Shown here piece after piece: positions 2,410-7,314 of a stretch of DNA of 37,997 nucleotides. A program made the translations under genes and the position numbers. How positions within the stretch are numbered: position 1 is the stretch's first letter; each line of letters begins with the position of its first letter. The notes under the pieces are model-generated. The model saw only the letters and a list, made by a program, of their open reading frames with translations, ran no database searches and was not told the origin of the DNA. Origin of the DNA: Acidobacteriota bacterium (GTDB taxonomy: Bacteria > Actinomycetota > Acidimicrobiia > Acidimicrobiales > RAAP-2); NCBI GenBank assembly GCA_018971385.1, contig JAGXAY010000011.1, positions 1 through 37,997 of the forward strand. The letters run 5' to 3'.

Positions 2410-3570
2410 GTGGATGCAGCGTCGCCTCCCCGGACGCTTCGACGTCTTACGGTCATCGTGGCCCTCCAATGGATGGGGGCTACGCTCGGACTCCCCCTCC
2501 TCCCCCTCTTCCTCGAACATCGTGGGGGAAGCCCTCACGTCATCGGGCTCATCATGTCCGCCTTTTTCGTCGCCGGAGTGGCGACCCAGTACGCCCTCGG
2601 ACACGCCAGTGATCGATTCGGTCGCCGCCCCATCCTCGTGGGGGCACTCGTCGCCTACGGGCTCGCTTCCATGACCTTCGCCCTGCCGGTGACAGCTCTC
2701 TGGTTTACCGGTTCACGCCTGATTCAGGGCGCCGCGGCCGGCGCCCTCGAAGTCACGGCCCTCTCCGCGGTCGCCGCTCTCTACCCGGAGACCGAGCGTG
2801 GACGGGCCGTGGCGAGAATCTTGTCGGCCCAACTCCTCGGCGTTGCCATTGGACCCCTCGCCGGAGCCCTCACGACAGTGGCCAATTTGGGGTGGGTCTT
2901 CGTCGCTACCGGAGTCGCGAGTTTGCTGGCCGCCTTCGTAGCGACCCGCCTCGATCTCGGTGGGCCGGTCTCCACCACCGGTCCACTGGTGAAGGTGTCC
3001 TGGTCGCCACGACTTATCGGCTCACTCGTCGCCGCGGGAGCGACGGGACTCACCATCGGAGTGTACGAAGCGTGTTGGACCCTTCTGATGAACTCCCACC
3101 ACGCCACGACCCTCGAAATCCGGCTGAGCTGGACCCTGTTTTCTATCCCGTGGCTCGTCCTCAGTCGACTCGGTGGGTGGCTCGCCGACCACGCCAACCG
3201 TCGGGTCATCGCCCTCGCGGGTCTCTGGAACGGCGCGATCTTCCTCGCGCTTTATCCGCACATTCACAACAACGTGGTCATGATTTTTGTGGGATCACTC
3301 GAGTCCATCGGCGCCGCCGCGTCCGTTCCGGCCATCGCCTCACTCTTGACCCAGGGGGCACACCCCGACGAAATGGGCCGACGTCAAGGTCTCTCGGCGA
3401 CCTCTCAGACCCTGGCCCTCGCCCTCTCGGCGGGAACGTCGGGCTTCCTCTTCACACGTTCTCCGGCTCTACCCTTCACACTCGTCGCCGTCATCTCCGT
3501 ACTCATGTCCACCACCACTCTGTGGTGGTGGCGCCACACCCCGGGCCATATCCGCGACGCCGCGGCGTAG
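2410..3570 (+). CDS. MFS transporter (drug/metabolite efflux type)
   Basis: A 386-residue polytopic protein with roughly twelve hydrophobic segments, the usual size for a 12-TM major facilitator. The cytoplasmic loop between TM2 and TM3 has the MFS signature motif A, seen as GHASDRFGRRPIL. The N- and C-terminal halves are similar in layout. Early helices resemble the multidrug exporter branch, but the substrate is not predictable. Its GTG start directly follows a TAGCCT-N6 promoter, so the transcript probably has no leader. It sits between the CadD-like gene and a convergent small membrane protein whose stop begins five bases after its own. Confidence 0.8.
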   Translation: MDAASPPRTLRRLTVIVALQWMGATLGLPLLPLFLEHRGGSPHVIGLIMSAFFVAGVATQYALGHASDRFGRRPILVGALVAYGLASMTFALPVTALWFTGSRLIQGAAAGALEVTALSAVAALYPETERGRAVARILSAQLLGVAIGPLAGALTTVANLGWVFVATGVASLLAAFVATRLDLGGPVSTTGPLVKVSWSPRLIGSLVAAGATGLTIGVYEACWTLLMNSHHATTLEIRLSWTLFSIPWLVLSRLGGWLADHANRRVIALAGLWNGAIFLALYPHIHNNVVMIFVGSLESIGAAASVPAIASLLTQGAHPDEMGRRQGLSATSQTLALALSAGTSGFLFTRSPALPFTLVAVISVLMSTTTLWWWRHTPGHIRDAAA

Positions 3571-3574
3571 GGAA

Positions 3575-3838
3575 CTACTCGCCCTCGTGGGCCGACCCGT
3601 CGTCGTGGTACGCACTGCGCACCACGTGGAAACTCGGCGTCGAGGTGGAACTACTCGACGCACTGGACTTGGCCGTTATCGAGGAGGTCGCGTTCGTCGT
3701 GGAACTCAGCGCGGACGAGGTGTGGGAGGAAGTGTCGTGAAGGGCGTACTGGCCCAGGCCGACCGCGGTCAGGAGTGCCACCACGGCTACTCCGGCGTTC
3801 GTCCATCCCTGAACCTTCTTTTTGACGGGGCGATACAT
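3575..3838 (-). CDS. Small single-pass membrane protein with Ser/Thr-rich tail
   Basis: An 87-residue protein preceded by a strong ribosome binding site (AGGAGG four bases before ATG 3838), which is what selects this frame over the other open frames here. It has a basic N-terminus (MYRPVKKK), one hydrophobic segment (about residues 15-33) and then a low-complexity Ser/Thr/Ala tail ending in an acidic, His-containing segment. The topology suggests a membrane anchor with an exposed flexible tail. No family is recognised. It is convergent with the MFS gene and divergent from the NCS1 permease gene. Confidence 0.6.
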   Translation of the reverse strand: MYRPVKKKVQGWTNAGVAVVALLTAVGLGQYALHDTSSHTSSALSSTTNATSSITAKSSASSSSTSTPSFHVVRSAYHDDGSAHEGE

Positions 3839-3974
3839 ATGTCCTCCTGGTACGCAACCAGTGTGGCGGGGCTAGATGAAGGGTCCGTAGGGGAGATTTA
3901 AAACGCCAGTAACAAAAAGCGGGGACTTTTCGTCGGAGTTAAGAAAACCCTAAGTCGCCATCCTCCACAATGGT

Positions 3975-4005
3975 GGGGTACGACTAACCCCTCACAGAGT
4001 CGTGC
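3975..4005 (+). promoter_or_regulatory. Candidate structured RNA leader (hairpin or H-type pseudoknot) before the NCS1 permease
   Basis: GTACGACT (3978-3985) can pair with AGTCGTGC (3998-4005). GGGG (3975-3978) can pair with CCCC (3988-3991) in the loop of that hairpin. The order of arms is a-b-a'-b', the topology of an H-type pseudoknot, or the two pairings may be alternatives. It lies about 35-65 bases before the start of a transporter gene. This is base-pairing read by eye, without energy calculation. Confidence 0.3.
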
Positions 4006-4020
4006 AGATGATTGTCATCT
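4006..4020. promoter_or_regulatory. Perfect dyad AGATGA-TTG-TCATCT, candidate operator or leader hairpin
   Basis: Two perfect six-base arms flank a three-base centre, 21 bases before the GTG start of the permease and just upstream of its ribosome binding site. It could bind a dimeric repressor or form a small hairpin affecting translation. Confidence 0.35.
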
Positions 4021-4040
4021 ATTAGGGAGGATAAGGATCA

Positions 4041-5570
4041 GTGTCAATGAGTTCAGTTCACGACGGTTCGTCGGGGGACCAGGCCTTCAAGGTTGAAACC
4101 CACGGGATCGATTTCATTCCGGAAACGGAGCGGTGGGCTAGCCCGCGCAATATTGGTGCCATGTGGGCCGGTAGCGCCATCAACATGGAGTACTTCATCT
4201 ACGGAGCCCTGTTGATGGGGTTCGGGTTCAGTTTTTGGACTGCGGTCTCCATCATCGTCATCGGCAACCTGTCGTATTTACTTCTCGGTGTTGCCTCTCT
4301 CCAGGGGCAAGAGTCGGGGACGACGGCCTTCACCACGTCGAGAGCCGCTTTCGGTACCCAGGGTTCGAAGCTGGTCTCCTTGTTCAACTGGATCACCCAA
4401 CTCGGTTTTGAAACGGAGGGATTGATTCTGATCGTCGGGGCGGTCCTCGTCCTGTCCCAGTACGCCGGAGTCACGGTGAACAGTGCCTTCAAAGTCATCA
4501 TCATCGTTCTCGCGGCGGCGGTCCAGGCGATCATGCCCTACCTCGGACACGCGACGATGGTGCGGGTCCTCCGCGCTCTCATCATCCCCTTCGCCGTGAT
4601 CTTCGCCATCTTCGCCATCTTCGAAGTGGGCCACGCCCACCCGGGGTCGGTCTTCGTCTTCGCCCACGGCTGGGAGCCCTATAGCGCGGGCTTGGCCTTC
4701 ACTATTGCCCTCTCCGGACTCGGGTGGACCGAGTGCGGCAACGACTACACCCGTTACTTGCCCCGCACCACGAAGCGCTCCTCGGTGGTGGGCTGGATCT
4801 TTCTCTCTACGGCTCTGCCCGAGATCGTCATGATGATTCTCGGAGCTCTGGCGTACTCCTACCTATCCACGTCCGCGGTCTGGAACAGCGCGAACCCGTT
4901 CTTCGCTCTCTACCACCAGAAGGGTCTGCCCAGTTGGTTCGTGGTGATTTTCCTGCTCTTCGCGATTGTCCAACTCTTCGGAATCAACTCCCTCGACCTC
5001 TACTCCTCGGGCGTCTCGGTCCAGGCCCTCGGCATTCACCTCAAGCGCTACCAGGCGGTGGTGCTGGACTCGGTCATCGCCTGCGCTCTCACCATTTGGG
5101 CGGAGTTCGGGTCGACGTTCTCGCTCTACATGAAGGACTTCGTCGGCGTCATCATCGTGTGGATTGCTCCCTGGTTCGCCATCTTCGTCGTGGACTGGCT
5201 GTTACGGGGGCGCCGTTACGACGCGGCAGCTCTCCAGAGTACGGAGCCGGGAAACCGGTACTGGGCCAGTGGCGGGGTGAACTGGAACGCGATGATTGCC
5301 TTCGTCGTCGGTCTCGTGCTCGCGACGTCCGCCTTTTCGAAGGCGCCACCACCCGTCAACTTCCCCCTTCACTGGATGACCCCCTTCTCCAACCACTTCG
5401 GGGCCTTCTACTGTGACGGAAGCGCCAAGGCCAACTGCGGTCCGGCGGGATGGTTCGGTGGGGCCGACATGTCCGTCTTCTTCGGAATTATTTCGGCCGG
5501 CCTGGTGTACTTCATCCTCGATCGCCTGTCGGGCTACACCCGTCGCACCCGAGTGAGCGACGCCGCCTAG
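4041..5570 (+). CDS. NCS1-family nucleobase:cation symporter (cytosine/purine permease type)
   Basis: A 509-residue transporter with about twelve membrane segments. NCS1 features include the N-terminal GIDFIPETER segment before TM1, the AFTTSRAAFGTQG loop, NWITQLGFETEG and the GNDYTRYLPR stretch. NCS1 carriers import cytosine, purines, uracil, hydantoins or allantoin with a cation. Cytosine is the best guess because a cytosine deaminase (6217) and uracil phosphoribosyltransferase (6679) lie close by, but the gene is not in an operon with them. The start may be GTG 4041 or ATG 4047; an AAGGA/GGGAGG ribosome site precedes both. A 15-bp terminator-like hairpin follows the stop. Confidence 0.85.
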   Translation: MSMSSVHDGSSGDQAFKVETHGIDFIPETERWASPRNIGAMWAGSAINMEYFIYGALLMGFGFSFWTAVSIIVIGNLSYLLLGVASLQGQESGTTAFTTSRAAFGTQGSKLVSLFNWITQLGFETEGLILIVGAVLVLSQYAGVTVNSAFKVIIIVLAAAVQAIMPYLGHATMVRVLRALIIPFAVIFAIFAIFEVGHAHPGSVFVFAHGWEPYSAGLAFTIALSGLGWTECGNDYTRYLPRTTKRSSVVGWIFLSTALPEIVMMILGALAYSYLSTSAVWNSANPFFALYHQKGLPSWFVVIFLLFAIVQLFGINSLDLYSSGVSVQALGIHLKRYQAVVLDSVIACALTIWAEFGSTFSLYMKDFVGVIIVWIAPWFAIFVVDWLLRGRRYDAAALQSTEPGNRYWASGGVNWNAMIAFVVGLVLATSAFSKAPPPVNFPLHWMTPFSNHFGAFYCDGSAKANCGPAGWFGGADMSVFFGIISAGLVYFILDRLSGYTRRTRVSDAA

Positions 5571-5571
5571 C

Positions 5572-5618
5572 GAGGGGTGGGTGGAGAACTAGCCCTCCCA
5601 GTCCTCCACCCACCCCTC
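5572..5618. terminator. Bidirectional terminator-like hairpin, 15-bp perfect stem
   Basis: GAGGGGTGGGTGGAG (5572-5586) pairs perfectly with CTCCACCCACCCCTC (5604-5618) across a 17-base loop. It sits between two convergent genes. One whole arm lies inside the 3' end of the phosphoribosyltransferase coding sequence. There is no long T run, as is usual in high-GC actinobacteria. Confidence 0.65.
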
Positions 5619-6194
5619 TTCGGAGGGATGAAAGACCGGAATCTCCCCGAGCGCGCGAACGAGGGAGGCGTCGTCCCCGAGGGCACCTCGCCACAAATTG
5701 GCTTCGGTCACGAGTGTGCCGATCGCGACGACGTCGGCCCCGAGACGACGCAACAGACGAAGGGCGGCGCCCGTCGAAGCACCCGTCGAAATCACGTCAT
5801 CCACGATGGCGACCCGTCGACCGGCGACGGAGGACACGCGAGCCCGGTCGAAGAGCAACCGCTGTTCGACCGCGGTGGTAATCGATCGGACCGGCTCGAA
5901 CTCGGCGTCGCTGAGGTGAATCTTCGGCGTCTTGTGCAGCACCACGTACTGATCGAGTCCGAGAGACCGCGTCACCTCGATCGCGACGGGAATCCCCATG
6001 GTGGCCACGGTGGCGACGACCTCTACGTCAAAGGGCCGAAGTTGGTCCGCGAGGTCCTGACCGGCGAGCTCCATGAACGTCACTCCCTGGTCGACGGTAA
6101 TCAAGAGCGCGAGGGTGAGATGCTCACTCAGGGCGACGAGGGGTAGGTCCACCCGTTGGCGACCAATGGTGACGGAGTAGTGGTTAGCGTTCAC
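5589..6194 (-). CDS. Adenine phosphoribosyltransferase-like PRTase (type I)
   Basis: A 201-residue type I phosphoribosyltransferase. The PRPP-binding loop reads VAIVDDVISTGASTG, with the two acidic residues and the Thr-Gly-containing loop of the family. Upstream lies ATMGIPVAIEVTRSLG, the APRT/xanthine-PRT-like segment. It would join a purine base (or act as a PRPP-binding regulator) to ribose-5-phosphate. The base specificity cannot be fixed from the sequence. The start is GTG 6194: a longer in-frame reading to 6329 would run through the divergent deaminase gene and has an Arg/Ser-rich, non-conserved N-terminus. A shared -10 element at 6203-6210 supports GTG 6194. Its 3' end carries one arm of a terminator hairpin. 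Confidence 0.75.
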   Translation of the reverse strand: MNANHYSVTIGRQRVDLPLVALSEHLTLALLITVDQGVTFMELAGQDLADQLRPFDVEVVATVATMGIPVAIEVTRSLGLDQYVVLHKTPKIHLSDAEFEPVRSITTAVEQRLLFDRARVSSVAGRRVAIVDDVISTGASTGAALRLLRRLGADVVAIGTLVTEANLWRGALGDDASLVRALGEIPVFHPSEEGWVEDWEG

Positions 6195-6202
6195 CCCGCT
6201 CG

Positions 6203-6210
6203 ATAATACT
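6203..6210. promoter_or_regulatory. Shared -10 element read in both directions (TATTAT minus, TAATACT plus)
   Basis: The top strand reads ATAATACT. Read on the minus strand it gives TATTAT eight bases before GTG 6194; read on the plus strand it gives TAATAC seven bases before GTG 6217. Only 22 bases separate the two start codons, so both transcripts must start from this one AT-rich island. Confidence 0.55.
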
Positions 6211-6216
6211 GAGAGC

Positions 6217-6678
6217 GTGACCACACCCCTCGACTCCGCCTTCGCTCGACGCGTTCTCGACGTCGCCCTCGAAGAGGCGCGCCTCGGACTCGCCGAAGGG
6301 GGCATACCCATCGGGGCCGCCCTCGTCACTCGTGACGGCGAGGTTCTCGGACGGGGCCATAACCGCCGAATACAGGACGACGACGCCTCCGTCCACGCCG
6401 AAACCGACGCCTTCCGACGAGCCGGCCGGCGGCGCGACTATCGCGACACGGTCATGGTCACCACGCTGTCTCCCTGCTGGTACTGCTCGGGGCTCGTGCG
6501 ACAGTTCAACATCGGGGCACTCGTTATTGGCGAGTCACGAACCTTCACCGGCGGCCACGAGTGGCTCCGCGAACTCGGTGTCGAGGTCGTGGTGGTGGAC
6601 GACGAGGAGTGCGCACGACTCCTCGGAGACTACGTTCACGCTCATCCCGATATCTGGAACGAGGACATCGGAGAGTAG
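6217..6678 (+). CDS. Cytosine deaminase, yeast (Fcy1) type, zinc-dependent
   Basis: A 153-residue member of the cytidine/deoxycytidylate deaminase fold. The zinc site is complete: HAE at residues 60-62 gives the His ligand and the catalytic Glu, and SPCWYC supplies Cys87 and Cys90. The closest remembered relative is yeast Fcy1: the GGIPIGAAL, GRGHN, EVVVVDDE and C-terminal EDIGE segments all match, including the C-terminal lid. It should convert cytosine to uracil, feeding the Upp encoded next to it. Related bacterial proteins are often called nucleoside deaminases, so a different base is possible. Its stop (6676-6678) directly abuts the stop of convergent upp with no base between. Confidence 0.8.
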   Translation: MTTPLDSAFARRVLDVALEEARLGLAEGGIPIGAALVTRDGEVLGRGHNRRIQDDDASVHAETDAFRRAGRRRDYRDTVMVTTLSPCWYCSGLVRQFNIGALVIGESRTFTGGHEWLRELGVEVVVVDDEECARLLGDYVHAHPDIWNEDIGE

Positions 6679-7314
6679 TTAGCGCACCGGTGGGCCGAAG
6701 AGTCGATCTCCGGCGTCGCCGAGGCCGGGCGTGATGTAGCCGACGTCGTTCAACTCGTCATCGAGTGCGGCCGCCACAATGCGCACGTCGGGGTGCGCGT
6801 CGCGAACGACGTCCACGCCGGGCTTGGACGCGATGAGGCAGAGCGCGGTAATCGCCCCCGCGCCTCGTCCCTTCAACATGGAGATGACGAGTGTGAGCGA
6901 ACCGCCGGTCGCCAACATGGGATCACAGAGGACGACGGGGGTTCCCTCGAGATTGTCGGGAAGTCCGTCGAGATACACGTCGGGCTGAAGGGTCTCCTCG
7001 TTTCGGCGAAGTCCCACGAGGCACACGCGGTGGCGAGGGAGGAACTCCTGCACCGCCGGGATCATTCCCAGGCCCGCCCGCAGAATGGGCACGATCACGA
7101 ACGAGGTGTCGATGCGGACCGCGGGGGCACCGGCCACGACCGGGGTATCCACGGTGGTCTCGACCACGGGCAAGTCACGAAACGCCTCGTAGGCGAGAAA
7201 TCGGGAGACCTCACTCGCGAGTCGGAGAAAGTCGGCGTTCGACGTCGAACGGTCACGCATCTGGCGAACCTTGTCGTCGATTACCGGATGGGACACAATC
7301 AGGGGAACAGTCAT
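6679..7314 (-). CDS. upp: Uracil phosphoribosyltransferase
   Basis: A 211-residue Upp that makes UMP from uracil and PRPP. The family hallmarks are clear: VPILRAGLGM near the middle, the PRPP loop CDPMLATGGSL and the uracil-binding C-terminal GYITPGLGDAGDR. Length is normal. It is convergent with the cytosine deaminase, and the two together would turn cytosine into UMP. The ATG at 7314 is preceded by TAAGGT with a six-base spacer and no Shine-Dalgarno, so the mRNA is probably leaderless. Confidence 0.95.
   Translation of the reverse strand: MTVPLIVSHPVIDDKVRQMRDRSTSNADFLRLASEVSRFLAYEAFRDLPVVETTVDTPVVAGAPAVRIDTSFVIVPILRAGLGMIPAVQEFLPRHRVCLVGLRRNEETLQPDVYLDGLPDNLEGTPVVLCDPMLATGGSLTLVISMLKGRGAGAITALCLIASKPGVDVVRDAHPDVRIVAAALDDELNDVGYITPGLGDAGDRLFGPPVR

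Follow-up and report, generated by a model that had tools for sequence, protein, structure and literature searches.

A conserved structured RNA leader of an NCS1 permease gene in one Acidimicrobiales genus, with a hairpin loop complementary to the Shine-Dalgarno sequence

The window, that is, the whole 37,997-nucleotide stretch of Acidimicrobiales DNA analysed here, contains an NCS1 permease gene preceded by a short leader and followed by genes for nucleobase salvage enzymes. The features relevant to the leader are as follows.

3966..3971, + strand: probable -10 promoter element CACAAT, a hexamer at fixed offset in relatives
3978..4005, + strand: hairpin P1, 3978-3985 paired with 3998-4005, from covariation in relatives
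3986..3997, + strand: apical loop of P1, consensus AGCNCCUCACGG, window AACCCCUCACAG, core CCUCAC, from column counts
3990..3993, + strand: anti-Shine-Dalgarno CCUC inside the P1 loop, from an RNAalifold consensus pair and pairing counts
4006..4020, + strand: hairpin P2, AGATGA-TTG-TCATCT, arms 4006-4011 and 4015-4020, from covariation
4025..4030, + strand: Shine-Dalgarno sequence GGGAGG, of which GAGG (4027-4030) is the loop partner in the model
4041..5570, + strand: NCS1 permease, GTG start, Pfam Transp_cyt_pur 8.6e-43, probably a cytosine importer
5589..6329, - strand: phosphoribosyltransferase, Pfam Pribosyltran 1.5e-9, start uncertain, near the permease in relatives too
6217..6678, + strand: yeast-type cytosine deaminase, best PDB match the cytosine deaminase 2o3k, 3.6e-37
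6679..7314, - strand: uracil phosphoribosyltransferase, NCBIfam upp 1.5e-67, above cut-off

The permease matches the NCBIfam ncs1 subfamily weakly (89.7 bits, cut-off 353), and its sequence matched no solved structure. PDB entries 2o3k and 1uaq are presumably both the yeast cytosine deaminase. Among the best 80 of 234 matches, which are named relatives, the sequence after the permease extends for at least 900 nt at 71 loci, of which 67 contain the phosphoribosyltransferase within the available DNA; the cytosine deaminase is also present in 58 of the 80. As the neighbours are a cytosine deaminase and phosphoribosyltransferases, the likely substrate of the permease is cytosine. These 80 relatives, all of them MAGs, are uncultured Actinomycetota, many of them named Acidimicrobiales or Acidimicrobiaceae, and their isolate names often refer to peat sites (palsa, bog, fen).

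The original prediction described three pairings within 66 bases upstream of the permease and proposed a structured RNA or an operator. All three are literally present in the window. The 8-nt arms GTACGACT (3978-3985) and AGTCGTGC (3998-4005) are complementary and form P1, the perfect dyad forms P2, and GGGG (3975-3978) is complementary to CCCC (3988-3991). G3978 is needed by both P1 and the GGGG:CCCC pairing, so at least one of the two must stay incomplete. Among 3000 dinucleotide shuffles of 3900-4045, 23% contain an 8-pair stem and 5.7% a perfect 6-pair dyad, each counted on its own, and 0.2% contain the two next to each other within 66 nt. For 3920-4060, a stretch that includes DNA probably not transcribed, the thermodynamic fold is unremarkable (z 0.10).

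The named structures were examined in a first alignment of 28 leaders (27 distinct) that had not been fitted to any structure, and in a larger alignment that comprises 69 leaders (63 distinct) of a single Acidimicrobiales genus and was fitted to the structure, so that it leans towards it. In the first alignment, 84.0% of the P1 cells are paired, compared with 30-45% in slid controls, and changes on both sides occur at all eight pairs; the corresponding values in the 69 leaders are 82.7% and, again, 8/8. For P2, 77.4% of cells are paired in the 28 leaders, with both-side changes at four of five pairs, and 83.3% in the 69 leaders, with both-side changes at three of five. Taken together, P1 and P2 contain 65 cells changed on both sides in the 63 distinct leaders, against 15.6 in shuffles, and none of 500 shuffles reaches 65. 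Both-side changes affect 11 of the 13 pairs in the larger set, a count that 15 of 500 shuffles reach, while the other measures were not reached. Moreover, in three leaders (L077, L079 and L103) the whole P1 stem has been replaced and the loop AGCACCUCACGG retained. P1 and P2 are conserved RNA hairpins, P2 being conserved less strongly than P1, and the compensatory changes for which the original prediction had proposed to look in homologous leaders are found in both. The GGGG:CCCC pseudoknot, the remaining one of its pairings, finds no such support: 48.6% of its cells are paired compared with 49.1% in shuffled columns, and 361 of 500 shuffles score at least as high.

Of 68 leaders (L120, which begins at a contig start, is left out of this count), 60 have a hexamer of the form NANNNT directly 5′ of the aligned block; at offsets 7-39 the form occurs in no more than 12 of the 68. 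In most relatives the hexamer is CATACT or CAGACT, and in the window it is CACAAT. From the usual promoter spacing, the transcript is predicted to start near 3977-3979, which would place most of the GGGG (3975-3978) outside the RNA. A simple consensus scan of 3560-4100 returned neither a promoter nor a terminator. Two further elements upstream of or within the leader were considered and set aside. ATCCTCC (3960-3966), which the thermodynamic fold pairs with GGAGGAT, lies 5′ of the predicted transcript start and is not seen, by eye, in the aligned relatives. The frame and stop of a short upstream open reading frame that starts in P2 (M-I-V-I-Y-stop in the window) are, also by eye, not kept in several relatives. 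Upstream of the leader, a divergent minus-strand open reading frame of 87 residues, possibly encoding a membrane protein, starts near 3838 with AGGAGG before its ATG. The longest upstream reading frame is on the minus strand in 16 of 19 loci examined (relatives and window), the window not being among the 16.

The leader belongs to a single gene. When the permease was used as query against 61 genomes (the window's own, 36 of the same genus and 24 of the order), it matched 37/37 of the genus and 0/24 of the order; the match in G021 is a mere 31% paralogue. Leaders anchored on the permease, with the RNA not used as anchor, mostly show one order of elements, namely a promoter-like hexamer, a hairpin, a second hairpin, GGGAGG and a GTG start. 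A covariance model built from the first alignment and applied to 99 genomes of the genus gave 69 matches with E values no higher than 0.0072; they fall in 68 genomes, normally one per genome. In G011 two copies of the permease are each preceded by a match, and one of these is cut by the contig end. All but one of the 69 matches lie directly before the permease, and in the remaining case (L076) the contig stops 47 nt past the leader. At this cut-off, 31 of the 99 genomes have no match. Below it, matches in G099 (E 0.083), G084 (0.25) and G095 (0.095) lie just before the permease by coordinates, and five other genus leaders (L132, L135, L282, L287 and L288) carry, by eye, CCUCAC in a hairpin loop before GGGAGG; none of five weaker matches that were fetched (L126-L130) adjoins a permease. 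In L133 the permease is preceded by an altered leader that has a hairpin but lacks the CCUCAC loop, and six more leaders (L013, L015, L016, L286, L289 and L291) have lost this loop with the permease present. Hence, the leader is not essential to having the permease, as several members of the genus carry the gene with an altered leader. In the subgroup of six, a GUUCCGGCCGGA hairpin replaces the CCUCAC loop before the ribosome site, and control may have been lost or altered.

Searches of the order (298 genomes) and the phylum (396), two overlapping sets that contain genus members and were screened with stricter filters, turned up nothing convincing beyond the genus, where no match had an E value below 0.00135. 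Of the loci from outside the genus, 17 (L085-L101, but not L301-L304) were checked for the permease, and it is absent from all of them. In other genera of the family (20 leaders plus L131, L136 and L137), no P1-like hairpin is seen by eye before the ribosome site; CCTCAC occurs in one of them (L265), but not before the ribosome site. We regard it as close to certain that the NCS1 permease leader is a real, conserved and previously undescribed RNA of one transporter gene, and the structured RNA of the original prediction is borne out by the covariation of P1 and P2 among genus relatives.

The likely pseudoknot partner of the P1 loop is the Shine-Dalgarno sequence instead of the GGGG originally predicted. 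RNAalifold, run on the first alignment without a supplied structure, pairs the CCUC of the loop plus one C with a G plus the GAGG of the ribosome site. As this pairing was picked by the program unaided, the pseudoknot is not a choice of the authors; the support for P1 comes from the covariation count. At -2.65 kcal/mol, the RNAalifold consensus with this docking is weak, and it includes neither P1 nor P2. All four pairs between CCUC (3990-3993) and GAGG (4027-4030) are possible in 61 of the 69 leaders and three pairs in six more, with none in the two that lack the loop; four leaders have CCCC in place of CCUC and lose one pair. GAGG is invariant, and all six letters of GGGAGG are present in 68/69 leaders, compared with seven of 31 pyrR leaders of the same genus in which GGGAGG stands directly 3′ of the hairpin. 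This difference fits an extra constraint on the ribosome site of the permease, but the count of 68/69 is favoured by the fact that the model that collected the leaders contains the Shine-Dalgarno sequence. In the permease-anchored set, GGGAGG is present in 26 of 27 loci with upstream DNA (the exception being L028). Because both sides are nearly invariant, covariation cannot prove the docking, and we estimate that in several percent of cases a C-rich loop of 12 nt would by chance contain four bases able to pair with the site. Conservation in the rest of the loop is as high as in CCUC itself, and therefore something besides pairing may be read in the loop, such as a ligand pocket or a site for a protein. 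The conserved A at 3994 faces a G, and plain sequestration of the ribosome site leaves this residue unexplained. A pairing of the loop with the 5′ arm of P2 (CACCU:AGGUG) was not adopted, since all five pairs are possible in just 14 of 69 leaders. Also, in relatives the CCAC of the spacer is complementary to the GUGG at the start, the two forming a candidate start-codon hairpin. Both halves are present in 53 of the 69 leaders, neither in eight, GUGG without CCAC in seven and CCAC without GUGG in one; the candidate hairpin is absent from the window, having been lost in its own lineage.

A second set of leaders in the genus bears on the P1 loop. The PyrR binding loop consensus is a hairpin with loop CNGNGA, followed by GG. 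PyrR is present in 60 of 61 genus genomes searched, and a PyrR-type loop, CNGNGAGG, lies in a bulged hairpin directly before the pyrR ribosome site in all 31 pyrR leaders taken, about 70-90 nt before the pyrR match (L143, L146-L175). The Rfam model RF00515 finds none of five pyrR loci scanned, even at E up to 10, and its silence on the NCS1 leader was therefore not used. In L143 (the pyrR leader of G000) and L153, the PyrR loop is preceded at a distance of 31-37 nt by another CUCCGUGAGGAG-like sequence, possibly a second PyrR site. The loop consensus of the 69 NCS1 leaders is CNCCUCACGG and not CNGNGA followed by GG, yet the reverse complement of the NCS1 loop CCUCACGG is identical to CCGUGAGG, the PyrR loop most often seen in these pyrR leaders. 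In 12 of 24 leaders from 23 genomes, all eight positions of the NCS1 loop can pair with the pyrR loop of the same genome (G-U counted). Nevertheless, a change on one side goes unanswered on the other, the window's own pair has one mismatch, and trans pairing with the pyrR mRNA was set aside, as no compensating changes are found among the 24 leaders. A PyrR loop on the reverse strand fits the letters, but by eye its bulge is on the opposite side; it is also disfavoured by plus-strand conservation, which takes in the promoter and the ribosome site. We read the complementarity between the two loops as an unexplained coincidence, which may arise because the PyrR loop contains a GAGG resembling a ribosome site. 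A bolder reading, less likely than a riboswitch for a pyrimidine, is that the NCS1 loop additionally forms a kissing interaction with the PyrR-binding loop in the pyrR mRNA through these 8 nt, one mRNA thereby reporting pyrimidine status to the other.

We hypothesize, with slightly more belief than doubt, that a cis-acting leader controls translation of the probable cytosine permease through docking of the loop on the ribosome site. Transcription would start at or just before P1, which would then display the anti-Shine-Dalgarno CCUC within the conserved CCUCAC loop. The Shine-Dalgarno GAGG lies about 34 nt downstream of the P1 loop, which would dock on it, P2 sitting in the bridging strand, and thereby hide the ribosome-binding site. 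As the docking consists of four base pairs and should be weak, a signal that stabilises or releases it is probably needed, and the gene neighbourhood makes a pyrimidine base or nucleotide the first candidate for this signal. What the leaders themselves display is a pair of conserved hairpins, a loop and a Shine-Dalgarno sequence that are both conserved and complementary, and a tie to one gene; the transcript start, the docking, the translational effect, the signal and the substrate are inferred. A conserved, structured 5′ leader with covariation, as expected of a riboswitch, is found here. It is conceivable, although we hold this with more doubt than confidence, that the leader represents a new class of very small riboswitches that respond to a pyrimidine (cytosine, uracil or a nucleotide), the bound ligand closing the P1 loop on the Shine-Dalgarno sequence.

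Alternatively, the reader of the P1 hairpin could be a protein, in place of a small molecule or the Shine-Dalgarno sequence. For a pyrimidine pathway PyrR is the obvious candidate, and its near-ubiquity in the genus and the PyrR-type hairpins before pyrR speak for it; an RNA-binding protein of another kind is possible; either would recognise P1 with its CCUCAC loop and block or free the ribosome site. A fixed loop on a changeable stem, as in L077, L079 and L103, is typical of a protein-bound hairpin, but the plus-strand consensus of the P1 loop contains the reverse complement of the PyrR-type loop in place of the loop itself, and we consider control by a protein rather unlikely. Similarly improbable, in our judgement, is a leader that responds to no signal at all and in which a 5′ hairpin close to the transcript start and a partly hidden ribosome site fix a low, constant expression or protect the mRNA. 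The small size of the leader, its restriction to one gene, the weak predicted docking and the altered leaders of several permease-bearing genus members would agree with such a role, whereas a 12-nt loop kept through exchange of the stem exceeds the needs of a stabilising hairpin. That a transcription factor binds the dyads as DNA operators, the other option of the original prediction, is very improbable. P1 and P2 are palindromic and adjoin the promoter, and AGATGA-TTG-TCATCT is a perfect dyad in the window. Operators, however, conserve the sequence of their half-sites, while across the 69 leaders, L077, L079 and L103 included, the stems change and the pairing survives, at the position of an mRNA leader; this exchange of stem sequences makes an operator at P1 unlikely. 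In addition, the P1 pattern, with up to three mismatches allowed, is found once in its own genome.

To our knowledge, there is no established riboswitch for cytosine or uracil, and a leader found only before a cytosine-salvage permease makes this question directly testable on an RNA of about 60 nt. Even in the absence of a ligand, the RNA would still represent an undescribed leader family in which a hairpin loop imitates an anti-Shine-Dalgarno sequence. The original prediction did not recognise a known riboswitch class, and a comparison with Rfam 15 agrees: the whole window gave no match at gathering thresholds, and seven loci scanned at E up to 10 gave seven matches, all far below gathering scores and none over a leader, the preQ1-II and preQ1-III family models among those without a match at the leader. 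Titles and abstract openings of open-licence literature on preQ1-II, PyrR, cytosine-permease and actinobacterial riboswitches and on surveys of candidate RNAs contain no description of it. Xanthine riboswitches, according to an excerpt of the published account, reject common pyrimidine bases (PMC7373994).

Three known systems resemble the NCS1 leader in part. Like the PyrR binding loop of pyr leaders (RF00515), it has a hairpin close before the ribosome site of a pyrimidine gene, but its loop is complementary rather than equal to the PyrR loop and, by eye, the 5′ GAA bulge is missing. The preQ1-II riboswitch is similar to it in size and has an extra hairpin in the bridging strand. In the excerpted description of preQ1-II (RF01054), translation is controlled by an HLout pseudoknot, in which helix P3 engages the Shine-Dalgarno sequence in pairing, and the class is limited to Bacillota (PMC11625349). 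Occlusion of the ribosome site in a pseudoknot, as modelled for the NCS1 leader, is thus shared with preQ1-II, whereas the NCS1 leader matches no Rfam family and no queuosine gene is seen beside the permease. In the P4-loop/P5 expression platform of preQ1-III (RF02680), as described in the same excerpts, a hairpin-loop anti-Shine-Dalgarno docks onto the Shine-Dalgarno sequence in the 3′ tail (PMC11625349). The NCS1 leader differs in its size of about 60 nt as opposed to about 100 nt, in having no visible separate ligand-binding pseudoknot, in its lack of an Rfam match and in belonging to a different gene and phylum. With preQ1-III it shares docking by a loop anti-Shine-Dalgarno, as modelled here, and the tie to a transporter gene, which in preQ1-III is queT.
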